Below are positions 14,681 through 55,066 of a stretch of DNA of 56,563 bases, in pieces. The stretch is taken from assembly GCA_040905475.1 (NCBI GenBank), contig JBBDRM010000019.1:1-56563 (forward strand), written 5' to 3'. The DNA is from Actinomycetota bacterium. Its GTDB lineage: Bacteria; Actinomycetota; AC-67. Under the pieces are notes generated by a model that saw nothing but the letters and a program-made list of their open reading frames with translations, ran no database searches and had not been told where the DNA came from. The stretch's first letter is position 1. Every line of letters begins with the position of its first letter. A program made the translations under genes and the position numbers.

Positions 14681-14683
14681 CGA

Positions 14684-17856: not shown

Positions 17857-17857
17857 G

Positions 17858-21275: not shown

Positions 21276-21373
21276 GCGTGGAGGACGTGGCGCAACCGTC
21301 TCCCGTCCCTCGGAAGACGCGGGCGCCGACGCCTGGCTCGACAGTAGTCGCCGGGCCCCCCGCCAGGCTCGTT

Positions 21374-21412
21374 CCCGCAGGTGATACGGGCTACGCTTTT
21401 TGTCCTACGGGG
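21374..21412 (-). promoter_or_regulatory. shared upstream element, copy 2
   Basis: Read on the minus strand it contains GGACAAAAAGCGTAGCC then TATCACCTGCGGG, ending about 100 nt before the exported propeller-like gene. It lies in the gap after the preceding gene's stop. Similarity with copy 3 continues about 20 nt further (GGAxCGAxxCTGGCGG). Confidence 0.55.
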
Positions 21413-21427
21413 TCCCAAACGCCAGCT

Positions 21428-22600: not shown

Positions 22601-22729
22601 GGCTCCCCCTTCAGCGGCCGAACGAGGACATCGGGGGGATGCCGGGCATGCCGGACCCCCAGGCCGGGCATCAACCGCTACGCGACGTATCGGCCCGCGA
22701 TCCGACGCCCTTGAGCGGTCGCCCGGACG

Positions 22730-22770
22730 CCCGAGGCCGCGAAAGTCGTAGCCCATCTCGTCCCCGCGCA
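22730..22770 (+). promoter_or_regulatory. shared upstream element, weak copy 4
   Basis: CGAAAGTCGTAGCCCATCTC resembles the core of the other copies (AAAAGCGTAGCCCGTATC) and lies about 40 nt before the family 2 glycosyltransferase start, a spacing like that of copy 3. Several core positions differ, so this assignment is tentative. Confidence 0.3.
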
Positions 22771-22808
22771 GGATTCGGGGCCGGAGACGCCCCCGATACG
22801 CTTGTCGG

Positions 22809-28453: not shown

Positions 28454-29763
28454 CAGGCCTCCCCTAATTCCAGGCGTTGCAACGGTGAGAACCGCGCCGT
28501 GGCCGGTGCAGCAGCGCGGCGCCCCTCATGCGCAAGCGACGTCAATCCCGCATACATCAGACCCATCCAGAAGTACTTGAACCCTAAGGTCGACAGGAAC
28601 GTGCTCGCCACAAGCAGCCCCACGAAGCCGGCCAGCGGGGACCCTCGGATCTCCGGCGGCAAGCGAAGCAGATCCTTCGCCACGAGTGCCAGCGCCGCGA
28701 CCAAGAGCAAGAGCCCGGCGATCCCGGTCTCGATCAGCGAACCGATCCAGATGCTGTGCGCGACGAATGGGCGGTCGAGCCCGCGCGCGCTGGGCTCGGA
28801 GTGCAGCGTGTCTTGGTACACCGTGGGGAACGTCCCGAAACCACTTCCCGCCCAGCAGTACCGATCGCAACGCGTCAGGGCCGTTCGCCAGATGTCCGTC
28901 CGTCCGGAGGATCCCGGACGGGAGATCCGGCGCTGCAACTGGTCGGGCGCCAGCGATATGGTCAGGCCGGCAACCAACACCAGTCCGAGTCCGACGGCCG
29001 CCATAACGCGGCGGCGCTGATGCGAGAACGCGTGGATCACGAGCACCGTCACCGCCGCGAGGATCCCTCCCCGCGAGCCGGTAAGCATGATCGCTGCACC
29101 GATGAGGGCGCTCGCGCTCCAAAACAGAAGACGAGCCGCCGTGTTCGTGGCCCGGACCGCGCGGCCGATCGCGATCGCGAGTGGAAGGATCAACGTCGCT
29201 GCAGTGATGTTCGGGTCGATCCCCTTGCCCACGCCGCCCGCCGTAGCGAATCTCTGCCCCGTGCCGCCCGCCTGCCCGAGCCCCGACTGCAGCAGCAGGA
29301 TGATGCCGTAGATGCCGGCGATGGCGCCGCCGAGCACGAGCGCTTCCTCGACGCGTACCACGTCGCGCTCCTCCACGGGCATCAAGCAAACGAGCAGGTA
29401 CAAGGCGACCAGGCCGAGCAGGATGGTGAACTCGCTCAAGCTGGCCGACGGGTTGACGGACCACGCGAAGCTCAATCCGGCGAAGGCCGCGAAAAGGAGC
29501 CACGCAGGGACGGCGGAGAGGAGCATCGGCGCGCTTCTCGGTACGAGCATGAGGTGGCCGATCAGGCCGGCGATCACCACGAGCCCGAGGACGCTCGAAG
29601 GGGTATCGAACGGCGGGGGCAGCCCGAGCGGCAGGCTCACCGCAGAACCGAATGGCAACACGAGCGCATAGGCCGTGAGCAGGACCCGGATCGGCGCTCG
29701 GAGGCCCGCGACCAGCGCCACGACGGCGACCGGCAACAGCGCAAACGCCAGGATCAGGATCAT
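28453..29763 (-). CDS. O-antigen ligase/polymerase-like membrane protein (Wzy-like)
   Basis: 436 residues with about 10-12 hydrophobic helices. The largest loop, in the C-terminal half, contains RTDIWRTAL, GSGFGTFPTVY and an H in FVAHSIWIG, the pattern of the O-antigen ligase/Wzy family. It is expected to polymerise lipid-linked repeat units on the outer face. The ATG is preceded by a 351-bp gap and it is the first gene of a two-gene unit with the Wzz-like protein. Polymerase versus ligase cannot be separated by sequence, but the neighbouring co-polymerase favours polymerase. Confidence 0.82.
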   Translation of the reverse strand: MILILAFALLPVAVVALVAGLRAPIRVLLTAYALVLPFGSAVSLPLGLPPPFDTPSSVLGLVVIAGLIGHLMLVPRSAPMLLSAVPAWLLFAAFAGLSFAWSVNPSASLSEFTILLGLVALYLLVCLMPVEERDVVRVEEALVLGGAIAGIYGIILLLQSGLGQAGGTGQRFATAGGVGKGIDPNITAATLILPLAIAIGRAVRATNTAARLLFWSASALIGAAIMLTGSRGGILAAVTVLVIHAFSHQRRRVMAAVGLGLVLVAGLTISLAPDQLQRRISRPGSSGRTDIWRTALTRCDRYCWAGSGFGTFPTVYQDTLHSEPSARGLDRPFVAHSIWIGSLIETGIAGLLLLVAALALVAKDLLRLPPEIRGSPLAGFVGLLVASTFLSTLGFKYFWMGLMYAGLTSLAHEGRRAAAPATARFSPLQRLELGEA

Positions 29764-30114
29764 CCAGGTAACGATAGGGTCAAGCCCCCACGACCGCGTT
29801 CTGCATTCACGTGGGCACCGCTACGACATCTGCTGTAGGGGTGCGCTCGAAAAAGGAGAAAGGGCTGGCCGAGGTCGCACCCGCCAGCCCTCACTCGTAT
29901 GGAACTGTGGCTCCCTCTCCGCAATCGAGCCCGGGCCCGGGACGGAGGGTCACCCTAGCCGGTTCGTCCTACGCGGCAGCCCTACTGGGCATCCCACGGG
30001 GCGCGGATTCCGGCCCCGACGTTAAGCCACGTTTGAGGAACCACCGGCACCCCGATTCTCTAACGCCGGGCGAGCCGTGTCTAGAGGCGAAAACGGGCGA
30101 CTTCGAAAGACGCC
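29764..30114. other. 351-bp gap between HIT gene and polymerase-like gene
   Basis: No protein-coding frame here looks real. It holds a strong stem-loop (listed separately) and, nearer the HIT stop, further pairing-prone GC-rich sequence, including TCTAGAGGCG against CGCCCTAGAG at 30080-30119. It would be the 5' leader of the polymerase operon and the 3' trailer of thrS-HIT. I compared it by eye with cobalamin, c-di-GMP and ydaO-type riboswitch cores and saw no match. Confidence 0.5.
29861..29891 (-). terminator. probable intrinsic terminator after the thrS-HIT operon
   Basis: Perfect 9-bp stem AGGGCTGGC/GCCAGCCCT with a 13-nt loop. Read on the minus strand it is followed by a T-rich tract (TTTCTCCTTTTT), which the plus strand lacks. 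It lies about 220 nt past the HIT stop and about 100 nt before the polymerase-like gene, so it could also act as an attenuator for that gene. Confidence 0.6.
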
Positions 30115-30597
30115 CTAGAGGTGCGGTTTGAGCCGGGAGTAGGTGTCCTCGAGCGCTTCGGGGATGACCTTGGACTCCCCCACCGTGGTCATGAAGTTCG
30201 TGTCCCCACCCCAGCGCGGGACGACGTGCAGATGGACGTGGTCGGTGATCCCGGCGCCGGCGATGACGCCTTGGTTCACCCCCACGTTGAAACCTTGCGG
30301 GCCGAGCGTCGCCTTGAGCGCGTTGATGCAACGCTGCGACCATTCGCCGATCTCCGCCAGCTCCTCGGCCGACAGCGACTCCCATTCTCCGACGTGCCGG
30401 TATGGCGTGACCATGAGGTGGCCGGTGTTGTACGGGAACTTGTTCAGGATGACGAAGGAGCGCTCCCCACGCGCCAGGATCAGGTTCGTTTCGTCGTTGG
30501 GCTCTGCCTGCGACGGGAAGTCGCAGAAGATGCACGCGTTGTGACGCTCCTCGCCTTTGATGTACGCCATCCGCCAGGGAGTCCAGAGACGTTCCAC
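30115..30597 (-). CDS. HIT-family nucleotide hydrolase/transferase
   Basis: 160 residues with the histidine triad HVHLHVVP (H120, H122, H124) and an N-terminal C-x2-C (22, 25), the usual form of actinobacterial HIT proteins near thrS. Family members hydrolyse or transfer AMP from dinucleoside polyphosphates or adenylylated substrates. The GTG start shares one base with the thrS stop (TAGTG), so it is translationally coupled. In mycobacteria the next gene is pgsA; here the exopolysaccharide block intervenes. Confidence 0.9.
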   Translation of the reverse strand: MERLWTPWRMAYIKGEERHNACIFCDFPSQAEPNDETNLILARGERSFVILNKFPYNTGHLMVTPYRHVGEWESLSAEELAEIGEWSQRCINALKATLGPQGFNVGVNQGVIAGAGITDHVHLHVVPRWGGDTNFMTTVGESKVIPEALEDTYSRLKPHL

Positions 30598-32387
30598 TAC
30601 GCGTGCGCCCGCGCGCGGATCTCCTCGACGACCTTCTCGGTGAACTCGGCGAGCGGGACGCCGCGCTGCCCGTCACCATCACGCGGGTTGACGCCCGCGG
30701 TGCCGCCCTCGATGTCGCTGTCGCCGATGACGAGGATGTAGGGAACCTTCTGCAGCTTCGCGTCCCGGATCTTGCGGCCGACCTTCTCGTGGCGGTCGTC
30801 GACCTCGACCCGGATCCGCCGCGCGCGCATGTCGGCCGCAACCTGCCGACAATGGTCGACGTTGCGGTCGTTGACCGCGCAGATCACAACCTGCACGGGG
30901 GCGAGCCAGGTCGGGAACGCGCCGGCGTAATGCTCGAGCAGCACACCGGTGACGCGCTCGACCGAGCCGAGGATCGCACGATGGATCATCACCGGGCGCT
31001 CCAGCTTGTTGTCCTCACCCGCCGCGTACTGCAGATCGAAAGCCTCGGGCAGCGCGAAGTCGACCTGGATCGTGGTCAGCTGCCAGTATCGTCCGATCGC
31101 ATCGGAGAAGTGGAAATCGATCTTCGGGCCGTAGAACGCGCCCTCGCCCTCGGCAACGGTATAGGGCTTCCCCCACTTGTCGAGCGCGCTCTTCAGCGCG
31201 TCGGTCGCCTCGGCCCACATCTCTTCGTTGCCGATCGCCTTGCCGGGCTTGGTGGAGAGCTCGATGCGCGGCTCGCCGAACCCGAGGGCGTCGTGGATCT
31301 CCAAGGTCAGATCCATCACGCCGATGATCTCGTCCACGAGCTGGTCGCGCCGGCAGAAGATGTGCGAATCGTCTTGGGTCAGCCCACGCACGCGCATCAG
31401 TCCATGGAGAACGCCCGAGCGCTCGTGCCGGTAGACGGTGCCGAGCTCGAACATGCGGATGGGCAGGTCTCGGTACGATCGGGTCTTAGACTTGTACACC
31501 AGCACGTGGAACGGGCAGTTCATCGGTTTGACGTAGTACTCCGCGCCCTCGAGCTCCATCGCCGGATACATGTTGTCCTTGTACTGGGCGAGGTGGCCGC
31601 TGGTTTCCCACAGCACGGACCGGGCGACGTGCGGCGAGTACACCGGCTCGTAGCCCCTTGACAGGTTGATCTCGCGCGAGAAGTCCTCCAGGGTTTTGCG
31701 GAGCGCGCCGCCCTTCGGGTGCCACACGAGCAGCCCGCCGCCGAGCTCCTCCGGGAACGAGAAGAGGTCGAGCTCGCGACCGAGCTTCCGGTGATCCCGC
31801 TTGGCGGCTTCCTCCAGCCGCACGAGGTACTCGTCGAGCGCCTCCTGCGACTCCCAAGCGGTGCCGTAGATCCGCTGGAGCATCGGGTTGCGTTCGTCGC
31901 CCCGCCAGTACGCGCCGGCGATCCGCAGGAGCTTGAACGCCGGGATGAGCGCGGTGTCCGAGACGTGCGGCCCGCGGCAGAGATCCGCCCACCCGTTGTT
32001 GCGGTAGACGGTGATGGCTCGGCCACCGGCGCCTTCGGCCTCGTCGACGCCTTCGATGATCTCGACCTTGAACGGCTGGTCGGCGAAGCGCTTCATCGCC
32101 TCGTCCCGCGAAAGCTCCTCGCGCTTGAACGACTGCGCCGCGGCCACGATCTCGCGCATGCGCGCCTCGATCCGCTCCAGGTCCTCGGGTGTGAACGGAC
32201 GCCCGACGTCGAAGTCGTAGTAGAAGCCGTCGGCGATCGCCGGCCCGATGGCGTACTTGGCGCCGGGGAACAGGTCGCACACGGCCTGTGCCATCACGTG
32301 CGCGGTCGAATGGCGGAGCACCTCACGACCTTCCTCCGAGGAGGGGTCGACGGCTGCCCCGTCGGTCAGCTTCACGGTTGCGGTCAC
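30597..32387 (-). CDS. thrS: threonyl-tRNA synthetase lacking an N-terminal TGS domain
   Basis: Class II aminoacyl-tRNA synthetase, 596 residues. The editing domain begins almost at once with HSTAH (26-30) and IADGFYYDFD. The catalytic core has the zinc ligands in MNCPFH and the later H, motif 2 with YRHERSGVLHGLMRVR, and motif 3 around MIHRAILGSVER. The anticodon-binding domain ends the protein. The E. coli enzyme has HSCAH at about 73-77, so the N-terminal TGS domain of about 60 residues is absent. GTG was chosen for its 4-bp overlap (GTGA) with the upstream gene; the frame extends upstream, but that stretch does not read as TGS. Confidence 0.93.
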   Translation of the reverse strand: MTATVKLTDGAAVDPSSEEGREVLRHSTAHVMAQAVCDLFPGAKYAIGPAIADGFYYDFDVGRPFTPEDLERIEARMREIVAAAQSFKREELSRDEAMKRFADQPFKVEIIEGVDEAEGAGGRAITVYRNNGWADLCRGPHVSDTALIPAFKLLRIAGAYWRGDERNPMLQRIYGTAWESQEALDEYLVRLEEAAKRDHRKLGRELDLFSFPEELGGGLLVWHPKGGALRKTLEDFSREINLSRGYEPVYSPHVARSVLWETSGHLAQYKDNMYPAMELEGAEYYVKPMNCPFHVLVYKSKTRSYRDLPIRMFELGTVYRHERSGVLHGLMRVRGLTQDDSHIFCRRDQLVDEIIGVMDLTLEIHDALGFGEPRIELSTKPGKAIGNEEMWAEATDALKSALDKWGKPYTVAEGEGAFYGPKIDFHFSDAIGRYWQLTTIQVDFALPEAFDLQYAAGEDNKLERPVMIHRAILGSVERVTGVLLEHYAGAFPTWLAPVQVVICAVNDRNVDHCRQVAADMRARRIRVEVDDRHEKVGRKIRDAKLQKVPYILVIGDSDIEGGTAGVNPRDGDGQRGVPLAEFTEKVVEEIRARAHA

Positions 32388-45232: not shown

Positions 45233-45275
45233 TGGAGGCGGCGCCCGGAATTGAACCGGGGTGGAGGGATTTGCA
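45233..45275 (-). repeat. tRNA-Cys 3'-half fragment (attachment-site copy 1)
   Basis: 43 bp identical to the 3' part of the intact tRNA-Cys (54993-55035), including the encoded CCA and reaching into the anticodon loop. The 5' half of a tRNA does not follow, so it is not a functional gene. Left boundary of the older element. Confidence 0.85.
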
Positions 45276-45372
45276 TTCCACCGCTCCCGGTCGCGTCCGG
45301 TTGCTTTCCGCTGCTTAGGGAGGGTGAGCGTCCGAGTCCCTCTTGTCGCAGAAGGTCCCGTCGCTGGCGTTT

Positions 45373-45389
45373 TTTGCCACCAGTTTGCC
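45373..45389. repeat. paired TTTGCC motif, left end of older element
   Basis: Two TTTGCC hexamers 11 bp apart, about 100 bp inside the first attachment-site copy. The same pairing occurs at three other element ends, as expected for arm-type binding sites of a tyrosine integrase. Confidence 0.45.
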
Positions 45390-45426
45390 GCCAGGCGGCT
45401 CGTCACTCCGATCCACGTCGCCGTAG

Positions 45427-46341
45427 CTACCGCTTCGTCAGCTCCCTCAGCCGCTTTGCCAGTTCCACCGACGCATCGATCTCCGCCTTGCGGATCGAGA
45501 CGCTTTCCACGTTTACGCCGACCGGGACCCCCTTGGCGCGAGCGTAGTCCCAGATCTCCGCGAATAGCTCCTCGCAGAGCTTCATGGAGGTAGCGAGCGG
45601 GTCCGGCGCATGGCGGAGCTCGTTCTCGAGCCACCGCGGGAAAGCAATGCCGAGCCACTTCATGAACTCGAGGGTCTTCTCCGAGCCGCAGGGCGCGAAC
45701 GTCAGGATGATGGAAACCGGAGCATCGCGGAGGGCGAGCGAGTAGTCGGAGATGAGCGACTTCGTCGAGGTCACGTCGTACACGGATTGCGTCACGAAGA
45801 ACCGGCATCCCATCTCGGTCTTTGCAAGGATCCGCTCGTGCTCGTCGAACCGGTGCGTGTGCCGCTCGGCGATCGCAATTCCGCCGAGGACGAGGTCGGG
45901 GGCGTGCTTCTTCACGAGCGCGTAGGCGTCGGACAGAGGGAGGCTGAGATCGGCGCGCCGGGTGGGTGCGCCGACGAGCACGGAGATATCGGGCCGCCCG
46001 TCACCGGTCAGCCATTCGACAAAGCTGTCGGGCGTGTCCCGGTTCACACGCCGGTAGACGATCTTCGCCGGGCGAAGACGGCCGAGGTGCTCGTTCGCAT
46101 AAGCATCGGGAAGAACGACGGGGAGGAAGGGGAAAGGGCGAGGCTCCGGCGTTCGATCGGACTCATCGCCGATGTCGTAGACGATGACGCCGTCGAGGTC
46201 CATACGCTCGATGCGTTCGGCCTGATGCGCGGCGATCGCTCTCAGCTCGTCAGTCGGGGTGGCGAGCTTCGGCGGAACGAGGCCGTAGAGACAGATCCCC
46301 GGCGCCCGGGCTTCGATCTTTTCGAGGAATGCCGCGTTCAC
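45427..46341 (-). CDS. methylenetetrahydrofolate reductase-family protein
   Basis: 304 residues reading as a TIM-barrel MTHFR-type protein: ICLYGLVPPKLAT near the start, DGVIVYDIGDES, GGIAIAERHTHR, RFFVTQSVYDV and GVPVGVNVESVSIRKAEID. The flavin- and folate-site patterns of canonical MetF are only partly recognisable, so it may be one of the divergent MTHFR-like proteins of actinobacteria. The gene is enclosed between two tRNA-Cys fragments and may be cargo of a decayed element, or host DNA caught between two insertions. ATG start; no partner gene adjacent. Confidence 0.72.
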   Translation of the reverse strand: MNAAFLEKIEARAPGICLYGLVPPKLATPTDELRAIAAHQAERIERMDLDGVIVYDIGDESDRTPEPRPFPFLPVVLPDAYANEHLGRLRPAKIVYRRVNRDTPDSFVEWLTGDGRPDISVLVGAPTRRADLSLPLSDAYALVKKHAPDLVLGGIAIAERHTHRFDEHERILAKTEMGCRFFVTQSVYDVTSTKSLISDYSLALRDAPVSIILTFAPCGSEKTLEFMKWLGIAFPRWLENELRHAPDPLATSMKLCEELFAEIWDYARAKGVPVGVNVESVSIRKAEIDASVELAKRLRELTKR

Positions 46342-46430
46342 GACGTCAGTCTATTGAGGCGCTCGATCGACCTCGCAAGGTTCGCCTTGCCCTGCGTTCG
46401 AAACGCTCGCGGAAGTGATCGGTCGTGTAG

Positions 46431-46610
46431 ATCGTCGGGCGCGCGGGAGCCGCCGCCGTCGCCAAGCGGCTCGGACACGCCCGGCCGAGCTTCACGCAGG
46501 ACCGGTACATCAAGCGGGCCCACGGTGCCGACGCGGACGTTGCGGCGGCGCTGGAGAACTCGTTCGCGGGTTTGCCACTTGGTTTGCCATCTGCAGCCGA
46601 CACTGCCTGA
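46431..46610 (+). pseudogene. tyrosine integrase, C-terminal remnant
   Basis: A 59-codon open frame, bounded upstream by a stop, encodes KRLGHARPSFTQDRYIKRAH and then a short tail. This is the last conserved block of tyrosine recombinases (LGH...T...Y), where the Y of DRYIKRAH is the nucleophile. The R and HxxR blocks are missing. It is oriented toward the second tRNA-Cys fragment exactly as the intact integrase is oriented toward the tRNA, so it is what remains of the integrase of an earlier element at the same site. Confidence 0.82.
46571..46588. repeat. paired TTTGCC motif, right end of older element
   Basis: TTTGCC twice, 12 bp apart, inside the last codons of the integrase remnant and about 80 bp before the second attachment-site copy. 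Mirrors the left-end pair. Confidence 0.45.
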
Positions 46611-46632
46611 TCAAGACGAAAGCACCAACGCG

Positions 46633-46658
46633 AAACGCCCTGCGTGTGCAGGGCGTTT
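46633..46658 (+). terminator. hairpin between integrase remnant and attachment site
   Basis: Perfect 11-bp stem AAACGCCCTGC/GCAGGGCGTTT with GTGT loop, ending in TTT. It follows the integrase remnant by about 20 bp and is a good intrinsic terminator for it; an equivalent hairpin lies before the intact tRNA-Cys. Confidence 0.7.
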
Positions 46659-46663
46659 CCGTT

Positions 46664-46709
46664 GAGGCGGCGCCCGGAATTGAACCGGGGTGGAGGGATT
46701 TGCAGTCCC
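46664..46709 (-). repeat. tRNA-Cys 3'-half fragment (attachment-site copy 2)
   Basis: 46 bp identical to 54995-55040 in the intact tRNA-Cys, ending at the same base of the anticodon stem. Two bases of the CCA end differ. It is the shared boundary of the older element and the satellite-like element. Confidence 0.9.
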
Positions 46710-46825
46710 GTCCGGAGCCTGACGCCCACTTCCGGATGGTGTCGTCCATCGCCGCTGACCTGCGGCTCCGAACGAGCGTTCTGCCGCGCGCTGACGCCCG
46801 GTGACGACCGCTGACGGATAGGATG

Positions 46826-46842
46826 TTTCGCAGATGTTTGCA
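46826..46842. repeat. paired TTTCGC/TTTGCA motif, left end of satellite-like element
   Basis: ATGTTTCGCAG and ATGTTTGCAG in tandem, 11 bp apart, about 115 bp inside the left attachment site; the second copy includes the HEPN gene's start codon. Matches the pair at the right end (54917-54933). Confidence 0.5.
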
Positions 46843-47535
46843 GATCGGTCGTCTCCGGATGACTTCGATGCGCGGTTCATGGAGTGGCGCGATTGGCTCG
46901 AAGATGGCCCGATCTACAAAGACGTCGTGAACGGCATCTTGGTCATTCGGCAAGTTTGGAACGGTTACAGGCACGTACTGAAAAGCGCACCTCCGGAAGC
47001 CAAGCAGGTCGCGACCTTCCATGAATGGCTGAACCACAACTACGGCCAGGCAATCGCTGCCGCAGTTCGCCGCCAGAATGAGTTGAGGGAAAACGTGCAC
47101 TCGCTTGCACGTCTATTAGACCTGGCATCTCGATTCCCTCGTGTTCTGTCCCGTGAGCGATTCATCAGACTGCGGCCGTCTGGAAGTGAACAGGCGGAGG
47201 GTGAGCGTTTCGATGAGATCAACGGCGTGGGGTACGACTTTCTAGACCCAACAATTCCGGCCACAGACCTTGAACACATGCGGGCGCGCACGGAAAAGGT
47301 GCGTACATGGTTTAACAAATCCGTCGCGCACTATGATCGTAAGCGCGACCGCTTCGTTGACGACATGACCTTCGATGAGCTTCACGCGGCAGCCGACACA
47401 GTCGTGGACACCTATGTTCGATGGCGCGAGATCCTTTGTTGCTCCACCATGGCCACACAGCTAGGGTTGAATCCCTGGGAGACGATCTTCCGCGTCCCTT
47501 GGGCGGCCCTCAAGCTGACCACTCCCGGGTCATGA
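46834..47535 (+). CDS. HEPN-domain protein resembling AbiU2 (possible abortive-infection cargo)
   Basis: 233 residues, largely helical. The middle reads AVRRQNELRENVHSLARLL and FPRVLSRERFIRL, and the later part has WFNKSVAHYDRKRDR, where the basic-x-AH segment fits the R/K-x-H catalytic region of HEPN ribonucleases of the AbiU2 type. Such proteins are linked to abortive infection. The match is by pattern only. It is the first gene inside the element, on the opposite strand to the capsid gene, and their 3' ends overlap by 6 bp. Less GC-rich than the host genes. ATG is inside a TTTGC repeat and lacks a clear ribosome-binding site. Confidence 0.5.
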   Translation: MFADRSSPDDFDARFMEWRDWLEDGPIYKDVVNGILVIRQVWNGYRHVLKSAPPEAKQVATFHEWLNHNYGQAIAAAVRRQNELRENVHSLARLLDLASRFPRVLSRERFIRLRPSGSEQAEGERFDEINGVGYDFLDPTIPATDLEHMRARTEKVRTWFNKSVAHYDRKRDRFVDDMTFDELHAAADTVVDTYVRWREILCCSTMATQLGLNPWETIFRVPWAALKLTTPGS

Positions 47536-49086
47536 TGCGCTGAGGCACACATCCGGCATATCCACGAATCCGGCAGCCAACCCCGACGCGCAAACATCGA
47601 GCGTCAGAGCGTAAGACTCGACACCGACGAACGCGACCGTCTCGAAAATCTCGCCGAAGATTTGAAGATCGTTCGTCAGGTTGATCGTCGAGTCCCGGAT
47701 GATGCCGAGGTCGAGTTCTCCTCCGTCAACGTGGATGAATGAGCCCTCGGGATAGAGGAGCGTGTCTACCGTGTCAGGCCATCCGATGAGCGGACCGACA
47801 CCCTGCGTATCGGTGAACGATTGCCCGCCGGCATCAAGCGACCAGATCGGCCGGATGCTTCGCGCGGTGAGCCATGCTTCGATGTCCGCCCGCGAGATCC
47901 CCATGGTGGAATCGCCCGGCGCCTGCCTTCCCATGTCGGCCTGCATCAAGTCGATGAGCCACGCGGGAGCAGCCCATCGCATCGTGAAGTCTTGCGGCAT
48001 CCGGTGACGAGAACGGAGTTGCGCGGCGGCACGTCCCACCGCCGCTAAAACGTCCCGGGTTGCACTCAGATTCTCGCCCGCGGTGACGGCCGTTGACGCG
48101 GTTAGCATCCTCGTCCAAAGCGAATCCTCGGCGGCACGCGCGACGGCCGAGATGGTCAGGTCGATGTAGTGCTCGACGGCTTCGGGATGGGTTCGAGCGT
48201 TGAAGTTCGAGAATTGCAGACACCGATGGACGGCTTGAACGTGGAGTTCGGTGGGTTCATCGCACGTCACCTGAAGGCACGGCTTCGGATAGTTCTCGCC
48301 CGAGGCGTCCTGGGCTTCGGTCGTGATTCCAACGGCTGACCCAACATCGACCAGCCGCGGAGTAGGCAGATAGACGATTCCACCCCGGTCGGCATCGAAC
48401 CGCGGCAACCCATCGCGCAACGGCCGTGAACCCGTCGAGCTAGATGGAAAGTCATATCGCGTATTGGGAGGGGCGCAGATCCCGCCCGAGGCGACTAGTG
48501 CGGGCGGCGACACTACCGCGTCGAGGGCAGAACGATTGGCGGTGAAGTCTCGACCCAGCCGCCGCTCCGGAGGTAGCTCCCAGCTCGCGCGAGCGATGCT
48601 GAAACGACCCTCCCGGCCCAGCGAGAGCAAACGGGACCGGAGTTCGTCTGCAATCTCGGCGACGGTTCCGAGTTCTCGACCCGCTGGAGTTGTCCAGCGA
48701 GAGGTTTCCGCTGGCGGTCGCGGCGACGAGCGAAGGTGCCGGGACCGATGGCGCTGAAGGTCGGCGATGGTCGGCTTGGCCGCTGCCAGGATCGCCCCCG
48801 CTGGTTCGGGTTCCGGTTCTGGTTCCGGTGGATCGGCGAGCCCGGCTCGGGTGAGGAGCTGTCGGAGTTCGTGTTCCGTCTCGGCCTTGACGCGCTTACG
48901 TCGCGTGATTTCGGTCTTGGTCCTGCCGTGCAGTTCCGAGATGGCGCGGGCCTTGTCGAGATCCCTCTCGTCGGCGGCGCTAGAGAGTTCGAGGGTGAGG
49001 AGTTCCCCGATCTCGCCGAGCTGAACGTCGTCAACCTCTTTGAAGCGACCGACCAATTCGGCAAGTTTGGCTGTACGTGAATCCAT
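47530..49086 (-). CDS. phage major capsid-like protein with N-terminal scaffold-like region
   Basis: 518 residues. The first 75 are charged and helical (coiled-coil-like, as in fused scaffolding delta domains), then a Pro/Glu linker (PEPEPEPEPAG), a basic region, and a roughly 300-residue domain with the look of HK97-type major capsid proteins of actinophages: VDVGSAVGITTEAQDASGE, then SATRDVLAAVGRA, WLIDLMQADMGR and LIGWPDTVDTLLYPEGSF near the C-terminus. ATG chosen for GGAGGG 6-8 bp upstream; the frame extends upstream without support. Encoded downstream of the small terminase. No prohead protease is present. An encapsulin was considered but lacks context. Confidence 0.72.
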   Translation of the reverse strand: MDSRTAKLAELVGRFKEVDDVQLGEIGELLTLELSSAADERDLDKARAISELHGRTKTEITRRKRVKAETEHELRQLLTRAGLADPPEPEPEPEPAGAILAAAKPTIADLQRHRSRHLRSSPRPPAETSRWTTPAGRELGTVAEIADELRSRLLSLGREGRFSIARASWELPPERRLGRDFTANRSALDAVVSPPALVASGGICAPPNTRYDFPSSSTGSRPLRDGLPRFDADRGGIVYLPTPRLVDVGSAVGITTEAQDASGENYPKPCLQVTCDEPTELHVQAVHRCLQFSNFNARTHPEAVEHYIDLTISAVARAAEDSLWTRMLTASTAVTAGENLSATRDVLAAVGRAAAQLRSRHRMPQDFTMRWAAPAWLIDLMQADMGRQAPGDSTMGISRADIEAWLTARSIRPIWSLDAGGQSFTDTQGVGPLIGWPDTVDTLLYPEGSFIHVDGGELDLGIIRDSTINLTNDLQIFGEIFETVAFVGVESYALTLDVCASGLAAGFVDMPDVCLSAS

Positions 49087-49260
49087 GACGGACCCTCCAA
49101 AGGTTCTTGGTTGGCCCGCATGGCGGCGATGTGCCGCGGCGCTACCGTTCGACCTTAGGAGGCCCGCATGACCCACAGTGGGCGGCGCTTCCTCCGAGAC
49201 GACTCGCTCGCATGGCCCTTCGGCGGCGCTGCGACTCGACCGGCCTGCGCCCAATGTAGT

Positions 49261-49704
49261 TCAGTTCCGCAGTCCCGTCCAGCGCCTCGCAAATGTCCCT
49301 TCCTCGTTCGAGAGATGCAGGAGATGGAGTTCGCATAGCCCGATTCGAGCGTCAACCGTCGTCGCCTCGAAGCAATCCGCGCAGTTCTCAGTGCGCACGA
49401 TGATCGGCGGCGTCGCGTCAGCCTTCCAGGAGAGCGTCTCTTTCACCGGGTTCGATAGCAGGCGCGGACAGAGGGCGCAGATCTCTTCGTTCCCGTTGCG
49501 ATGGAGCGCGTGACCCATGTGTTCTTCGTAGCAACCTCTGCAACTGACGCTCACTTCTTCAACGTGAAATAGGCACAGAAATAGTCCATCCTGTGCTTCG
49601 TCAACGTGCCCGCATGTGATCGGATCGCTTCTAAGCATCGTCAAAGCCGCTTCAACCAATCTGTTGAGTCTTGGTAGTACCGTCAGTCCGGCAAGCTCAT
49701 CCAT
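49261..49704 (-). CDS. Cys/His-rich protein, probably zinc-binding
   Basis: 147 residues with many C-x2-C or C-x2-H pairs spread along the chain: CLFH, CRGC followed by HMGH, CALC, CADC and CELH, enough for two or three zinc sites. It is not a clear HNH endonuclease and I cannot name the family. GGAGGG precedes the ATG by 8 bp, and the start overlaps the small-terminase stop by 8 bp. Lying between terminase and capsid genes, it may take part in packaging or late-gene control. Confidence 0.55.
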   Translation of the reverse strand: MDELAGLTVLPRLNRLVEAALTMLRSDPITCGHVDEAQDGLFLCLFHVEEVSVSCRGCYEEHMGHALHRNGNEEICALCPRLLSNPVKETLSWKADATPPIIVRTENCADCFEATTVDARIGLCELHLLHLSNEEGTFARRWTGLRN

Positions 49705-50176
49705 CGTTATCCCTCCGATTCAATGCTGCGTACCTTTTTTCTGCCGCTTCGATCAGCTCTAATCTTCTCGCTTCCCGTGTCGTTTCATCGAGCCATAGTC
49801 GCGATTGACTTGTAGGCGTGAGCCCTAGTCTTTGCCGATGCTCAACGGTTTTGGAAGCCCAAAGACGAAGTTGTTTCGACAAGCTGGCTCGTGGTTCGTC
49901 GTTCTCATCCATGACGCCAAGACGGTCGATGCCTTCCGCGTACAAGCTCCAGACGGATAGTGCGACTGCGTAAGCCATCGTCTCATCGGCGAAATCTGCA
50001 AGCTGCGGATGCTCCCCGATGAGCCGTTCGTATTCCTGTTTGGCACGCGCGAGGACGATGCGTTCAGATCGCGCGCCGTGCGTCACCGATTTCGTATTGG
50101 CCGCGCGAAAAAGCCATGGTCGATCCGATTCCGGTATCTCTACCGCGGTTTCGCGCATGGGTTCCTCATCATTCAT
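49697..50176 (-). CDS. phage terminase small subunit, P27-like
   Basis: 159 residues. The helical core includes LADFADETMAYAVALSVWSL and the C-terminal part has LGLTPTSQSRL, closely matching the LGLTPSSRARL signature of P27-type small terminases. Small terminases recognise cos/pac DNA and recruit the large subunit, which is not encoded here, so it would have to borrow one from a helper phage. ATG with a G-rich ribosome-binding site. First gene of the three-gene late-type unit, transcribed from a 350-bp G/C-tract-rich gap. Confidence 0.7.
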   Translation of the reverse strand: MNDEEPMRETAVEIPESDRPWLFRAANTKSVTHGARSERIVLARAKQEYERLIGEHPQLADFADETMAYAVALSVWSLYAEGIDRLGVMDENDEPRASLSKQLRLWASKTVEHRQRLGLTPTSQSRLWLDETTREARRLELIEAAEKRYAALNRRDNDG

Positions 50177-50534
50177 CGACTACCCCCCGTTTCGGTTCGA
50201 GTGTGGAAACGTCGGAGGGGGATACTCTGTGCGCCGCTCGCCCCCGCGACGAGTCGCGGATGGCATCCCCCTCGAACTGCGGATTGCATATCCCCCGACC
50301 CATCCATCGCCGCAGGTCAGAGGGCGCGAAAGCGACCACGCGAAACAGCCGCGAAACGGTGCGGTGGATCGGTTGGATCCGAGCCACGCGCCCGCGCGAG
50401 AACCCGTCTGACGGCCTGAGAGACCCGATCACCGGAGCCTCGCGCGCATCGTTTGGGCCAGTAGGGGGGGAGGCCGAATGTGGGCGAGCGCGGGGATCGT
50501 TGACCTCAGTTAGGCCATCCGCTTGAGTATCGGC
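50177..50534. promoter_or_regulatory. divergent control region of the satellite-like element with GGGGGAT motifs
   Basis: No gene is convincing. Heptamer GGGGGAT occurs on the plus strand at 50217 and as ATCCCCC at 50265 and 50290; further C- and G-runs flank it (near 50181 and 50463). The region separates the small-terminase gene from a divergent gene and may hold late promoters, an operator or a packaging site. Confidence 0.4.
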
Positions 50535-50999
50535 ATGGGCCTTCTTCATCGGCTCCTCAAGAAGCGTGGAGAGGCCGTCCAGGAACGCTACGTGGCGCCG
50601 TTTCGCCCCTTGCTGCGCGAGGACGAACACGTCATACAGGTAGCGGTGGCGCGTGACCCCAATGGCGATCCTCGCGAGCTGATTCACCTTGGGCCGACGA
50701 ACCAGAAGCGTTTGCTCTGGTACTACAAAGATGAGCCGTCCCGCATGGGCGAGATCAATCTTGCTTGGTTGGAGGCGGCGGGAATGAACTCGGAGAGCTT
50801 GCTCGTGGCCCTGGTCGAAGCGCCCATGCATTCGTCGCAACTCGCCCTGGGCGAACAGGGGTACACAAAAGTCCTGTTTGAGCTTCTTCCGTCGGCGCTC
50901 TCGGCTCAGGTAATGGTCGCGATCGTGGAGCAGATCGGCGGCCCCGAAAAGATGCAGCGTCTCTCGCGTGCGTTCATGGAGCGTTACGGCGGTGACTAG
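50535..50999 (+). CDS. hypothetical protein of the satellite-like element
   Basis: 154 residues beginning MGLLHRLLKKRGEAVQERY. It looks globular and mixed alpha/beta with no membrane segment and no motif I recognise. ATG preferred over an upstream TTG in the same frame; neither has a strong ribosome-binding site. It is transcribed alone on the plus strand between the terminase unit and the regulator unit. Confidence 0.5.
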   Translation: MGLLHRLLKKRGEAVQERYVAPFRPLLREDEHVIQVAVARDPNGDPRELIHLGPTNQKRLLWYYKDEPSRMGEINLAWLEAAGMNSESLLVALVEAPMHSSQLALGEQGYTKVLFELLPSALSAQVMVAIVEQIGGPEKMQRLSRAFMERYGGD

Positions 51000-51159
51000 G
51001 GGCGCGTGGACCGCGCAGCGGGCCGCGCGGCGCGACCAGCGCGACAATCCCGCGCCGCAGGCCCATTCCACGCTGCGGGAACTAACGGTTCGTTGATAGG
51101 TACTTTCTGTACTCAACGGAGCGTTAGTTCGCGCCGGATGAACCGTTAGAAATGCCTGC

Positions 51160-51807
51160 TCAGGGCTCATCCTTACCGCCGTTCTTCTCTTGACGGATCG
51201 CATCGCCCCACAGACGCAGCCATGCCTTCCGTGGAATCCCTTTCGGCAGCGGTTCGTTCTCGACGATCTCGACGCCCCATCGCTGTTTCGCCTCGTCTAC
51301 GGCCAGCTCCCACGCGCGCTCCCAGTCGTCTTTTCGGTCACGCTCCATCCCTGTATCGGCGACGTCGAAACGCCTTTCTTCGTCGGGAGGCCGCCAGCCA
51401 TCCGACCATGACACGCGCTCTGCGCCTTTTCGCAACACAAGATCGAGGAGCCGCAACGCAAGATCGCTTCGCCAAGGCTGCGACCGTGCGATCCTGCAAT
51501 CAGTGAACGACCAACCGTTGCCGTCGAGCGTCCGCACAGTCACGCCCTCTGCTCCTGCCGCGTGGCGAGCCTGCCGGAGACGATTGGTGCTACCGGCAAA
51601 TCGCCGCACGTAGACAAAATCATGCGGGAACCTGCCCGCTGCGTTCCGATAGTCGCGGCGCCCGAGCATCTCGCGACACGCGGCGCATAGTCCACGGCGC
51701 CGGCACGGTCGCCTCCACGTGAACGACCGCCCGTCCTGAAGGCTGACGAGCGGCAAGAGCCATCCGCGGCATGGCGCATCAAAATCGAACCCGTTACTAT
51801 GACCCAC
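51160..51807 (-). CDS. hypothetical protein with CxxC-type zinc motif, possible replication function
   Basis: 215 residues. The N-terminal part has CRRRGLCAAC, spaced like a zinc knuckle, followed by HDFVYVRRFAG; the C-terminal third is helical and charged (WERAWELAVDEAKQRWG). The protein follows the AlpA-like gene on the same strand, the slot where PICI-type satellites carry replication genes, but no primase, helicase or HUH motif was seen. GTG start; an alternative lies further in. Function left open. Confidence 0.45.
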   Translation of the reverse strand: MGHSNGFDFDAPCRGWLLPLVSLQDGRSFTWRRPCRRRGLCAACREMLGRRDYRNAAGRFPHDFVYVRRFAGSTNRLRQARHAAGAEGVTVRTLDGNGWSFTDCRIARSQPWRSDLALRLLDLVLRKGAERVSWSDGWRPPDEERRFDVADTGMERDRKDDWERAWELAVDEAKQRWGVEIVENEPLPKGIPRKAWLRLWGDAIRQEKNGGKDEP

Positions 51808-51843
51808 GGTTGTTCCATCCGCTTCGTTGAGTCCGGCGCCGCG

Positions 51844-52071
51844 TCAGGTACCGGACTCATCTTTTTGATCTGTCGTTGTCGTGGTGTCGCTGTTCAAGCC
51901 CAACGCGGCTAGGACAGCCGCGGTCGGGATGATGTGCCTAGACCCGAGCTTGAACGCACCAGGGACCTCGCCCCGGCGCAGAGCCTCGTACGCAAGGCCG
52001 CGACTGACACCCGCGCAACGCGCGAACTCTTCGACGCTCATCGTCGGCTGCTCGCGCGGATCGGGAATCAC
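51844..52071 (-). CDS. AlpA/excisionase-like helix-turn-helix protein
   Basis: 75 residues dominated by a MerR-like winged helix: MSVEEFARCAGVSRGLAYEA, then LRRGEVPGAFKLGSRHIIP, the usual helix-turn-helix plus wing of AlpA/Xis proteins. Such proteins direct excision or activate integrase and replication genes in satellites and integrative elements. The GTG overlaps the upstream regulator's stop by 4 bp; an ATG 10 codons later is possible. Confidence 0.75.
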   Translation of the reverse strand: MIPDPREQPTMSVEEFARCAGVSRGLAYEALRRGEVPGAFKLGSRHIIPTAAVLAALGLNSDTTTTTDQKDESGT

Positions 52072-52307
52072 GGTTGCCCCCGCAGAGCCGCCAGGAGATC
52101 GGCGTATCGGACCGCCGCCTTACCCGAGGGACGCTTGTCACCCAGCTCCCAGCGCCGAACCGTGACGTGCGTCACGCCCACGACGGCGGCGATCTGGTTG
52201 AGAGATAGTTCAGCCTCGGCGCGGATGCGTTGCGCTTCGCCACTTCGCGCCAGGCGGCGCGCCAGGCTGACCTTGAGTGCTTCCGTCTTCGTCATCGTGC
52301 GTGCCAC
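52068..52307 (-). CDS. XRE-family transcriptional regulator
   Basis: 79 residues with a single helix-turn-helix, LSLNQIAAVVGVTHVTVRRW followed by E.GDKRP, a standard Cro/C1-type DNA-binding fold. Divergent from the gene upstream of the integrase across about 100 bp containing a palindrome and direct repeats, so it is the likely master repressor or activator of the element. Coupled with the AlpA-like gene by a 4-bp overlap. Confidence 0.8.
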   Translation of the reverse strand: MARTMTKTEALKVSLARRLARSGEAQRIRAEAELSLNQIAAVVGVTHVTVRRWELGDKRPSGKAAVRYADLLAALRGQP

Positions 52308-52331
52308 TCAAACACATCCTGATAGTGCCCG

Positions 52332-52408
52332 GTACCCTTTGGATAGCTCATTGCAGAATTGAGCCTCGGGGATTGGGCTAGCCCATTCTGTTCATCTGTT
52401 GTACCCTT
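52332..52408. promoter_or_regulatory. operator-like repeats between divergent regulator and integrase units
   Basis: GTACCCTT occurs twice in the same orientation (52332-52339 and 52401-52408), 69 bp apart, and a 12-bp palindrome TGGGCTAGCCCA lies between them (52374-52385). The placement between divergent starts suits binding sites for the XRE-like or AlpA-like protein. Confidence 0.45.
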
Positions 52409-52413
52409 GTGTC

Positions 52414-53037
52414 ATGGCCAAGCAGCGACGGAAGGACCCGTTCCCCATCCGGCACATCCGAGCCTTCGGCGACCTGTCGGTTGATTCTGTTTCGCTCGGC
52501 GATCGCCGCTGGTTGCCAACGTCGTTCGGGCTGACCTTCGATGACCCCAAACGGCCAGTCGTCGCGACACTGTGGGTCACGGTCGGCAAGGATGCGGTCC
52601 CCAGGGTCGCCAGGATCAGTGTCGAAGCCCGGGACGCAGCGAAGGGCATCAGTTCCGTGGCCCTGCGACTACCGCTGCCGGAGATTCTTCGCGAGGGGGC
52701 CGCCGTGGTCGTGCAGATCGGCCAGGAGGAGACACGAGGGACGCTGAAGAGCGAAGTCCGCCAGTGGCGCGAGGCGTTCATCCCGATGACGAATCCCACC
52801 GGCCCGACAGCGCAGCGTACCCGGCGTGCGTATCGCAGCGTCGATCAAGAACGGCTGCGCCGGGTTGCTACCGTCGTCCGTCGCGCCGTTGAGGAAGGGA
52901 AGCCCTTCATCAAGGCGGTCATGGAGGTGGAGCACGTCGGGCAGAGCCATGCGAAAAGGTTGATCGACGGGGCACGGGCAGCGGGATACCTGGAAGAGAC
53001 GAAGCCGCGAGGGCGGCGGAAGGGGAAGGGCCGATGA
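52414..53037 (+). CDS. hypothetical protein encoded directly upstream of the integrase
   Basis: 207 residues. The N-terminal 130 look beta-rich (FGLTFDDPKRPVVATLWVTV); the C-terminal part is basic and helical, with VGQSHAKRLIDGARAAGYL resembling a helix-turn-helix, and ends in a Lys/Arg-rich tail. ATG chosen; a TTG five codons earlier would overlap the GTACCCTT repeat. The stop overlaps the integrase start (ATGA), so it is co-expressed with integrase. Similar proteins precede integrases in other actinobacterial integrative elements; the role is not known. Confidence 0.6.
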   Translation: MAKQRRKDPFPIRHIRAFGDLSVDSVSLGDRRWLPTSFGLTFDDPKRPVVATLWVTVGKDAVPRVARISVEARDAAKGISSVALRLPLPEILREGAAVVVQIGQEETRGTLKSEVRQWREAFIPMTNPTGPTAQRTRRAYRSVDQERLRRVATVVRRAVEEGKPFIKAVMEVEHVGQSHAKRLIDGARAAGYLEETKPRGRRKGKGR

Positions 53038-54257
53038 GAGGAAGCGTCGTTCGGCGCGGGCGGTCCTGGTCCATCGTGGTCGATCAAGGAATGCAACCGG
53101 CACGGATGTGCGCGGCGGGATGCCGTGCCGGTGGCGGTCGAGGGCGGGGTCGCAGCGTTGTGGTCTGGAGTGATGACAAGATCGACCGTTGCCCGCGGTG
53201 CGGCGGCAAATTGTCAGAGCCAGTCAAGCTGCGCAGGCAGAGATGGAGCGGCGGCCATGCGACGAAGCGCGAGGCCGAAGCGGCGCTCCGTAAGGCGTTA
53301 GGCGAAGTCGAAAAGGGCGAGGACCCGTTCCCCGAGGACGTGTTGTTCTCCGAATACGCGCTCAGGTGGATTGAGCAGCGCGACATCCGAGCCTCAACCC
53401 GAGTCCGTTACCGGAGCCTGCTCCGCCATCACCTGCTCCCCGCACTCGGCCAGATTCCGCTCCGGCGGATCAAGCCCGCGCACCTTCGCGACCTCATGGA
53501 GCAGATGCGCGGCAAGGGACTCAAGCCCCGCTCGATCATCCAATGCCGTGCCCTCTGTTCCTCGATCATGGAGACGGCCTTGGGTGATGGTCTCGTCATG
53601 AACAATCCCGCTCGGGCGGCCAAGCCCCCCACGGCGGAGCGGCCGACTTTGGAGGTACCCAATGCTGCGGGCGTCCGGGCCATCATCGCGGCATCCGAGG
53701 GCACTCGGTGGGAGGCGCCGGTTCTGCTCGCCTGCGCTGCGGGCTTGAGGCGCAGCGAAACGCTCGGACTCACCTGGGCAGCTGTGGACCTCGATAAGGC
53801 GACAATCTCGGTCGCGCGCGGCCTCCATCGCGTCGAGGGCACATTCTCGATGCTCGACCCGAAGACCAAGCGAGCCGCCCGGACGCTGGAGATCCCCCCA
53901 TTTGCGGTCGAACACCTCCGACGTTGGAAGGTCGCCCAGGCTCAGCGGCGGCTCGCCATTGGCGAAGGGTGGGCCGCAGGCGACTTGGTGTGCGACGACG
54001 GCAAGGGCCAGCCGGTCAAGCCGGACGTGTTCACGCGCTCGTTCCGAAGACTGGCGAAGCGGGTGGGCTACCCCAATACCCGGCTACATGACGCGCGCCA
54101 CGGGTTCGCGACCTTGCTTCTGGAGGCCGACGTTCACCCTGCCATCGCCTCGGCAGCGCTCGGGCACTCCCGCGAGGCGTTCACGATGGAGCGTTACCAG
54201 CACGTTCGGACGACGGCCGCGGCGGCCAAGGCAATCGAGGACGCACTCGGCGGCTGA
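53034..54257 (+). CDS. tyrosine site-specific integrase
   Basis: 407 residues. An N-terminal Cys-rich segment (CAAGC and CPRCGG) is followed by an AP2-like/arm-binding stretch, the SAM-like core-binding domain (YALRWIEQRDIRASTRVRYR) and the catalytic domain. The catalytic residues are R near 240 (GLRRSETLGLTW), HxxR near 351 (HDARHG) and the nucleophile Y near 387 (TMERYQHV), with LGHS before it. ATG overlaps the previous stop. It lies next to tRNA-Cys and points toward it, as do integrases that recombine into a tRNA 3' end. Confidence 0.93.
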   Translation: MRGSVVRRGRSWSIVVDQGMQPARMCAAGCRAGGGRGRGRSVVVWSDDKIDRCPRCGGKLSEPVKLRRQRWSGGHATKREAEAALRKALGEVEKGEDPFPEDVLFSEYALRWIEQRDIRASTRVRYRSLLRHHLLPALGQIPLRRIKPAHLRDLMEQMRGKGLKPRSIIQCRALCSSIMETALGDGLVMNNPARAAKPPTAERPTLEVPNAAGVRAIIAASEGTRWEAPVLLACAAGLRRSETLGLTWAAVDLDKATISVARGLHRVEGTFSMLDPKTKRAARTLEIPPFAVEHLRRWKVAQAQRRLAIGEGWAAGDLVCDDGKGQPVKPDVFTRSFRRLAKRVGYPNTRLHDARHGFATLLLEADVHPAIASAALGHSREAFTMERYQHVRTTAAAAKAIEDALGG

Positions 54258-54270
54258 CGATCCATCCGGA

Positions 54271-54822
54271 TCATCGCCTCACTGTCGATCGTCTCGCGAC
54301 AGTGTCCTTCGCCGCGCAGACGATGCGGTCCCAACCGTGTTCTCCGTCGTTCCCGTGCTCGCAGTAGGAAGCCTCAACTTGTTCCTGTCTCGACCAGGAA
54401 ACGATGACTGAAGCAAAAAGCCGCTTCTTCACGAGATGCACCGCATCAGCGTCCTCGATGAAACCAGCCTTCCATTCCGCTAGTCTCTTGGACGCATCCT
54501 CATTCATGGGCCCGCTCGTTGATGCTCGAACTTCAGTTGCCTTAATTTGGTTGTAGAGGTTCGCAAGGTAGGTCCACTGCTGAGAGAACCGCGCGTACAG
54601 AGCCGTGTACGAAGCGGCGAATACGACCCCAAGAAATTTGAGCGCGTCGGTGATCCGTTCGCCGATACCCGAATCACCGAACAGATTTATCTCCCGTATT
54701 CCGATGGTCGGCCCAGCGATCAAGATGCTGATGAACAGCGCCCGACCCAGGACGACCGGACCGCCGTTGGCGTTCCTAACCATCCACTCGGCCGTCAGGA
54801 AGTCAACGAGTTTGCGCCACAT
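54271..54822 (-). CDS. two-helix membrane protein, probable cargo
   Basis: 183 residues. Two hydrophobic helices near the N-terminus (about 25-42 and 60-80, VVLGRALFISILIAGPTIGI and FLGVVFAASYTALYARFS) precede a soluble, charged C-terminal region with WKAGFIEDADAVHLVKKRL. No known family was recognised. It sits between integrase and attachment site, converging on the integrase 14 bp from its stop, a common cargo slot for defence or immunity genes. AT-richer than the host. No clear ribosome-binding site before the ATG. Confidence 0.55.
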   Translation of the reverse strand: MWRKLVDFLTAEWMVRNANGGPVVLGRALFISILIAGPTIGIREINLFGDSGIGERITDALKFLGVVFAASYTALYARFSQQWTYLANLYNQIKATEVRASTSGPMNEDASKRLAEWKAGFIEDADAVHLVKKRLFASVIVSWSRQEQVEASYCEHGNDGEHGWDRIVCAAKDTVARRSTVRR

Positions 54823-54916
54823 GCCGTACCGATGGTAGCCCCGGCGCCCGCTCAGGAGGCCTAACCTGGAGCGGCCAACGGATACCGGGATCCCGACGGT
54901 GCTAGCGAACTTGATG

Positions 54917-54933
54917 TTTGCAGCTTGTTTGCA
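54917..54933. repeat. paired TTTGCA motif, right end of satellite-like element
   Basis: ATGTTTGCAG and TGTTTGCA in tandem, 11 bp apart, about 60 bp inside the right attachment site. Same spacing as the left-end pair. Confidence 0.5.
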
Positions 54934-54958
54934 AGAAGCCCCCCCACGGGGGCTTCTT
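54933..54958. terminator. strong bidirectional hairpin before tRNA-Cys
   Basis: Perfect 11-bp stem AAGAAGCCCCC/GGGGGCTTCTT with CCAC loop. It lies between the element's right-end genes and the tRNA 3' end and can terminate transcription of either. Confidence 0.7.
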
Positions 54959-54992
54959 CACGATCGGGCTAACCGTTTGCCCTGGTCACTAC

Positions 54993-55066
54993 TGGAGGCG
55001 GCGCCCGGAATTGAACCGGGGTGGAGGGATTTGCAGTCCCTTGCCTAACCACTCGGCCACACCGCC
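54993..55066 (-). tRNA. tRNA-Cys (GCA), integration target
   Basis: Complete cloverleaf: acceptor GGCGGTG/CGCCGCC, D-arm GCC/GGC type, anticodon stem AGGGA/TCCCT with loop CTGCAAA (anticodon GCA), T-arm CCCGG/CCGGG with loop TTCAATT, CCA encoded. Its 3' half is the direct repeat that bounds the mobile elements to its left, so integration restores the gene. Confidence 0.93.
54995..55040 (-). repeat. attachment-site copy 3 (inside intact tRNA-Cys)
   Basis: 46 bp shared exactly with 46664-46709. The next base to the right differs, so the crossover lies within this block, between the T-arm and the anticodon stem. Confidence 0.9.

Follow-up and report, generated by a model that had tools for sequence, protein, structure and literature searches.

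A PICI-like element with a putative small terminase gene and a hexamer-type capsid gene in a tRNA-Cys gene of an Actinomycetota bacterium: a probable helper-dependent phage satellite

A discrete insertion of 8,331 bp occupies a tRNA-Cys gene (positions 46664-55040) on contig JBBDRM010000019.1 of an Actinomycetota bacterium (assembly GCA_040905475.1; lineage AC-67), the window being the whole 56,563-nucleotide stretch that was analysed. It is best explained, with a probability that we put at about 0.62, as an integrative, helper-dependent satellite resembling the phage-inducible chromosomal islands (PICIs), in which a small terminase (TerS) would pick the DNA to be packaged and a hexamer-type major capsid protein (MCP) would build a small shell together with parts from a helper phage. 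What can be read directly is an attachment-site (att) repeat, an integrase, a divergent repressor and HTH_17 regulator, TerS, a hexamer-type capsid protein and cargo, the other phage genes not being found (Table 1). New here are the lineage, the graded packaging gene sets of related elements, the apparent retention of the hexamer protein only and the separate origins of the capsid genes; PICIs with capsid homologues are already known from Staphylococcus and gammaproteobacteria (PMC8569155, PMC6092414).

The original prediction had placed a candidate satellite between the copies of a 46-bp direct repeat at tRNA-Cys, and these boundaries proved exact: the copies at 46664-46709 and 54995-55040 are identical over all 46 bp, and ARAGORN recognises a tRNA-Cys(gca) gene. 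Chance is far too small to explain an exact 46-bp repeat in 12.6 kb. The G+C content of the unit (~57-67% per kb) lies below that of much of the window, as is usual for mobile DNA. From attR inward, the order is that of the 183-aa protein, the integrase and the 212-aa protein, followed divergently by the XRE, HTH_17, 215-aa, TerS, 147-aa and capsid genes; two open reading frames (ORFs) of 158 and 233 aa are found on the strand opposite the TerS-capsid gene run. The integrase and the XRE-like regulator named in the original prediction were both borne out by family matches. Its 'AlpA-like' regulator keeps a match to HTH_17, which falls just under the cut-off, and one to an excisionase PHROG, but 'AlpA-like' is a loose label because Pfam Phage_AlpA reaches only E=0.26.

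The capsid identity of the 518-aa protein is firm. Its HK97 core (residues 190-504) matches PHROG_777, 'major head protein', at E=2.9e-63, and a low-confidence AlphaFold2 model (mean pLDDT 56) retrieved HK97-fold phage capsids in Foldseek at E ~1e-9, with encapsulins, which have the fold in common, also among the matches. A search of solved structures by sequence returned nothing but low-complexity PEPEPE matches. By tblastn, 834 phage records were matched, every one at less than 60% identity, and identity to one phage of the family, L043, is 49-53%. The host genome holds the capsid gene once only.

The 159-aa protein, predicted to be a P27-like small terminase, scores 16.1 bits against PF05119, for which the curated cut-off is 24.7. 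Weak when taken alone, this putative identification is supported by a homologue in a related element of another genome (G226; 31% identity over 106 aa), which scores 22.0 bits against PF05119, matches the PHROG_83 small terminase and has a gene overlapping that of a large terminase (TerL; PHROG_9 E=4.7e-27). A search of viral contigs with TerS gave no match, and a fold search was dropped, the single-sequence model being too poor (pLDDT 56). As had been predicted, no TerL, portal, protease, tail or lysis protein was matched by Pfam or PHROG among the 11 element proteins scanned, and tblastn of the proteins of 13 related phage and satellite loci against the element recovered only the MCP, the integrase and the 212-aa gene, besides a few short matches at chance level. 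Nor was a helper prophage recognised in the host genome in searches for portal and TerL; no PF04860 portal was found there, and any helper would thus probably come from outside as an infecting phage.

Relatives of the capsid protein were sought in 397 genomes of the phylum, the host class being represented in the collection by only five. Close relatives were found in two other genomes, which belong to a single family outside the host class and have the appearance of finished isolate assemblies, and in each the gene lies on a small element at a tRNA gene. That of G053 (~6.2 kb, tRNA-Ser) carries an integrase, an HTH_17 gene, a DnaD-like gene, a gene for a 172-aa protein and the MCP gene; that of G226 (~10.2 kb, tRNA-Leu) encodes an integrase, a 208-aa homologue of the 212-aa protein, an XRE protein, a second HTH-like ORF, a DnaB-type helicase, TerS, TerL, a 143-aa protein and an MCP. 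The tRNA-Cys and G226 elements have five genes in common in equal order and orientation, with identities of 31% (integrase), 31% (212-aa gene), 57% (XRE), 31% (TerS) and 39% (MCP); G053 shares the integrase (31%) and the MCP (36%) and also has an HTH_17 gene. The packaging gene sets are TerS and MCP at tRNA-Cys, TerS, TerL and MCP in G226, and MCP only in G053. None of the three sites holds a full prophage, and where full phages carry this capsid protein its gene stands in a different neighbourhood, beside portal, MuF/protease and pentamer protein genes. The 212-aa gene is a backbone gene common to G226 and, distantly (profile match E=4.2e-9), to G258; a search of viral contigs with its protein gave no match. 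The G258 element (contig C65 ~14612-31561, L089-L091; ~17 kb, ending at tRNA-Pro) has the same backbone, with an integrase 39% identical to that of G226, the distant 212-aa homologue, XRE at 47%, and a tape-measure-like protein in place of capsid and terminase genes.

The capsid genes of these satellites have not come from a single source. In a tree of 49 MCPs, that of the tRNA-Cys element groups with phages L043 and L061 (support 100/99), those of G053 and G226 form a separate pair (100/100), and a single origin of the satellite proteins was rejected in 200 of 200 bootstrap trees; satellites of a common backbone therefore carry capsid genes from at least two phage origins. A single satellite clade in the first tree (18 rows, 88/92) was overturned by 31 added rows. 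Nearly all non-satellite relatives found adjoin a MuF/protease gene, and usually a portal gene too: among the IMG/VR loci found by satellite-MCP alignment (L043-L070), a MuF/protease relative lies near the MCP in all and a portal relative in most, and the MCP loci in Actinomycetes genomes and in an Acidimicrobiales metagenome-assembled genome (MAG) resemble full or partial prophages or phages. The MAG locus, which has complete phage head and tail genes, was the one relative found in a second scan of genome contigs; a first profile scan with the MCP alignment used patterns that were too general and gave no confirmed relative. At this locus (L032, 1805-9233) the ORFs for portal and MuF/protease reach an unusual length (1045 and 1454 aa) and, judged by eye, contain intein-like Hint sequences.

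It is unlikely that the unit is instead an inert remnant of an ordinary prophage whose other genes were deleted. Only part of a phage gene set is left, a degraded integrase and a third att copy next door show decay at the tRNA-Cys site, the MCP sits on a long branch (0.89 changes per column, compared with 0.19-0.39 for sister phages) and the MCP codon bias is only modest (G+C of 0.70 at third and 0.52 at second codon positions, GC3 and GC2), all of which would fit a remnant. However, both att sites are present, the integrase, regulators, TerS and MCP are all intact ORFs, and tblastn found no traces of TerL, portal, protease or tail genes. The same gene losses are seen in separate capsid lineages, and related genomes, checked for a full prophage at this locus, hold instead the elements at tRNA-Ser and tRNA-Leu: two further tRNA-bounded elements of like build, and their existence speaks against a single case of prophage decay.

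Annotated phages of this family list the MCP as 'major capsid hexamer protein', and a gene named 'major capsid pentamer protein' comes next after it in four of eight later-sampled phage records. The gene downstream of the MCP was assigned to PHROG_779 in each of the ten phages tested (E 8e-122 to 3e-21), and the PHROG_779 profile matches 15 of 17 further MCP loci, with weak matches in GMA2 and Phendrix and with L062 and L070 missed. No match was obtained among ORFs of at least 40 aa in the three satellites, all of which appear to keep the hexamer protein only. Sequence searches yielded no solved structure for the pentamer protein, which also goes unnamed in the available part of the Rosebush capsid paper. 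At one further locus, on a 7.5-Mb chromosome (L040; G456 C1 2924600-2944500), the MCP, protease and PHROG_779 genes lie together, and no portal could be made out in the part that was retrieved; it is either a partial prophage or another reduced element.

The satellite capsid proteins also have short N-terminal arms, the length being counted as the residues ahead of the conserved [VT]A[AS]GG motif. The arms measure 197, 200 and 213 residues in the satellites, 228-351 in 54 other members and 243 and 244 in the sister phages of the tRNA-Cys element; the satellites thus have the three shortest arms of 57 proteins. For unannotated phages the first start codon was used, which may lengthen arms, and the annotated phages (230-351) agree. 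Short arms in two separate capsid lineages suggest a common constraint, such as a smaller shell.

A more specific mechanism can be offered tentatively, at odds somewhat below even: the satellite would hijack phages with two capsid proteins by joining its own short-armed hexamer protein to helper-made pentamer protein, portal and protease, in a mirror image of SaPIbov5 Ccm, related satellites having taken hexamer proteins from different phage lineages, possibly to suit different helpers. On the main reading, infection by a helper of the PHROG_777/PHROG_779 lineage would lift repression by the XRE protein, the AlpA/Xis-like protein and integrase would excise a circle, and the satellite would replicate. 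Its TerS would then steer the helper large terminase to satellite DNA, whilst the short-armed MCP would form hexamers and co-assemble with the helper pentamer protein, portal and protease. HK97 has about 40 kb of DNA and a T=7 shell, and by volume scaling from it a small shell of ~T=3 would serve for ~8 kb and would take a helper tail; building such shells would also lower the yield of the helper.

Several points weigh against the satellite reading or against its hexamer-only form. The packaging part is not uniform, since G226 adds TerL and G053 is without a detected TerS, and the TerS call for the tRNA-Cys element is by itself weak (E=0.015). The designation of PHROG_779 as pentamer protein comes from depositors' annotation, its function being listed in PHROGs as unknown; arm lengths depend partly on start-codon choice; and the comparison is limited to three elements and two capsid lineages. 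The element is known here from sequence alone, from which its induction, excision, packaging and size control are inferred, and the MCP of the satellite may be able to make pentamers as well.

This last point leads to the idea that the MCP alone builds a full small shell, pentamers and hexamers alike, with the helper giving portal, protease, TerL and tail, which we regard as quite unlikely. The protein is full-length, with scaffold arm and whole HK97 core, and the capsid-forming PICIs (cf-PICIs) make their own heads (summarised in PMC10690885). However, phages with this MCP usually have a separate gene annotated as pentamer protein, which suggests that the MCP leaves the pentamer position unfilled, and the portal, protease, connectors and both terminase subunits of cf-PICIs were not found as a set here. 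A non-packaging use of the capsid gene, to poison helper assembly or as a domesticated shell, with spread in helper-sized particles or by conjugation, is very improbable: satellite proteins can serve as interference factors and the Foldseek list includes encapsulins, but the TerS gene is a short way upstream of that for the capsid and shares its strand, G226 has TerS, TerL and MCP together, and family scans recognised no cargo or conjugation gene. An interference role of a PICI capsid homologue has been tested (PMC6092414).

The tRNA-Cys element has the att repeats and own integrase of an integrative phage satellite, and no full virion gene set. Comparable elements are phiRv1 and phiRv2, which also carry a prohead protease, none being found in the tRNA-Cys element. 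Both are counted, in the available text of the source, among the candidate PICIs of Mycobacterium, small elements with integrase and major capsid genes at tRNA genes (PMC10654092). These resemble the present element in combining an integrase with a capsid gene and, in some, terminase genes, in having tyrosine integrases at tRNA genes and in belonging to Actinomycetota; they differ in their Mycobacteriaceae hosts, the comparison being one of descriptions and not of gene homology, and the hexamer-without-pentamer pattern is not described for them in that text (PMC10654092). The original prediction spoke of a lineage with few described satellites; the lineage is indeed new but the kind is not, since satellites with integrase and capsid genes at tRNA genes have, as far as that text goes, already been described in Mycobacterium (PMC10654092).

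Among satellites with capsid genes, cf-PICIs carry MCP, protease, portal, connectors, TerS, TerL and HNH genes (summarised in PMC10690885). They are alike in having their own capsid and terminase genes, whereas only TerS and MCP of that set are present here. Since portal, protease, connectors and TerL were not found by ORF scans and tblastn, the element is not a cf-PICI; the prediction of a satellite with its own capsid gene is supported by the capsid, TerS and related elements, but not in the sense of a capsid-forming PICI as defined. The Mulch and Flayer satellites of Streptomyces are likewise capsid-encoding satellites of actinobacterial phages, but they encode portal, scaffold, adaptor and both terminase subunits (PMC10690885). 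In SaPIbov5, the capsid homologue Ccm, with a delta domain of 87 residues against 128 in the phage protein, redirects capsid size (PMC8569155). It too is a satellite-encoded HK97-fold protein with a shorter N-terminal domain and no satellite protease, but it fills pentamers whilst the helper gives hexamers, whereas the tRNA-Cys satellite, in another phylum, has a hexamer-type protein and is missing the pentamer gene (PMC8569155); by analogy, its MCP may redirect size as Ccm does. The gammaproteobacterial PICIs PmCI172 and EcCICFT073 also carry a capsid-protein homologue, and PmCI172 makes small heads (PMC6092414); they differ from the tRNA-Cys element in hosts and sequences.

PICIs as a class have been defined by an integrase, an stl/alpA-type regulator, replication genes and terS in conserved order, by phage-dependent induction, interference and packaging into infectious particles, and by attachment sites never used by prophages (PMC6092414). 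Integrase, XRE, HTH_17 and TerS genes are present here in order, with the 215-aa protein, for which there was no family match, at the place that replication genes take in G226 and G053. A second, degraded integrase remnant lies at the same tRNA-Cys as the satellite.

These elements extend capsid-gene satellites to deep Actinomycetota, whose hosts are mostly uncultured and rarely sampled, and their partial morphogenesis sets (TerS and MCP; TerS, TerL and MCP; MCP only) fall between classical PICIs and cf-PICIs. If the hexamer-only pattern is functional, a satellite would set shell size via hexamers and not pentamers where the phage genes are separate. The function of the PHROG_779 gene also becomes open to direct test.

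Amongst the remaining genes (Table 1), the 215-aa protein may, to judge by gene position, have a role in replication, and the GC3 of the 158-aa ORF suggests that it is coding. The palindrome between the divergent XRE and 212-aa genes is a possible operator. The 233-aa protein is possibly anti-phage defence cargo, although PADLOC gave no match to it, and the 183-aa protein is probably a membrane protein.

Table 1. Features of the tRNA-Cys element and its flank, in window coordinates
Feature	Position	Strand	Evidence and remarks
Flanking remnant, outside satellite	45235..46663	.	Third repeat, metF-like ORF and degraded integrase C-terminus
attL	46664..46709	.	Truncated copy of tRNA-Cys 3' end; 46-bp direct repeat
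Cargo protein, 233 aa	46834..47535	+	Beside attL; PF18734 (HEPN_AbiU2) E=0.0011, below cut-off
Major capsid (hexamer-type) protein, 518 aa	47530..49086	-	HK97 fold; N-terminal helical scaffold arm
Cys-rich protein, 147 aa	49261..49704	-	No family matches; start overlaps TerS stop; stands where G226 has TerL
Putative small terminase (TerS), P27/Terminase_4 type, 159 aa	49697..50176	-	PF05119 E=0.015; G226 TerS homologue
ORF, 158 aa	50523..50999	+	No family matches; GC3 0.75
Protein, 215 aa	51160..51807	-	No family match; at place of G226 DnaB-type helicase / G053 DnaD-like loader
HTH_17 / AlpA- or excisionase-like regulator, 75 aa	51844..52071	-	HTH_17 E=1.5e-5; PHROG_66 'excisionase and regulator' E=0.003
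XRE-type repressor, 79 aa	52068..52307	-	HTH_3 E=7.6e-9; 57% identity over 68 aa to G226 counterpart
12-bp perfect palindrome TGGGCTAGCCCA	52374..52385	.	Divergent promoter region, XRE / 212-aa gene; candidate operator
Protein, 212 aa, DUF6214-like C-terminal region	52399..53037	+	Overlaps integrase start; 31% identity to G226 gene beside integrase
Tyrosine integrase, 407 aa	53034..54257	+	Phage_integrase E=4.7e-18; PHROG_1 E=1.3e-58
Cargo protein, 183 aa	54271..54822	-	Between integrase and attR; no family match; probable membrane protein by inspection
tRNA-Cys (gca)	54993..55066	-	ARAGORN; integration leaves gene intact
attR	54995..55040	.	Same 46 bp as attL, within intact tRNA-Cys gene

The host genome (G000) also contains a second small element of ~10.1 kb (contig C101 1-10150, L030), bounded by a 53-bp direct repeat resembling a tRNA-Tyr 3' end, on which lies the only PHROG_2-type TerL found in that genome. 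Its genes comprise an integrase, an excisionase-like gene, a replication initiator, TerL (PHROG_9 E=1.6e-75), a prohead protease (PF04586 E=1.8e-27) and a LamG/tail-like protein; no capsid or TerS gene was found on it, and its set nearly complements that of the tRNA-Cys satellite.

An empty tRNA-Cys site could not be located in sister genomes, where the flanking transporter has relatives so remote that no orthologous locus could be fixed. Outside the satellite, a third tRNA-Cys-derived repeat, unmentioned in the original prediction, lies at 45235 (41 bp identical), and between it and attL lie a metF-like ORF (45427-46341) and a degraded integrase C-terminus (~46450-46610). The third repeat and degraded integrase beside attL indicate that an older element had used the same tRNA-Cys site.

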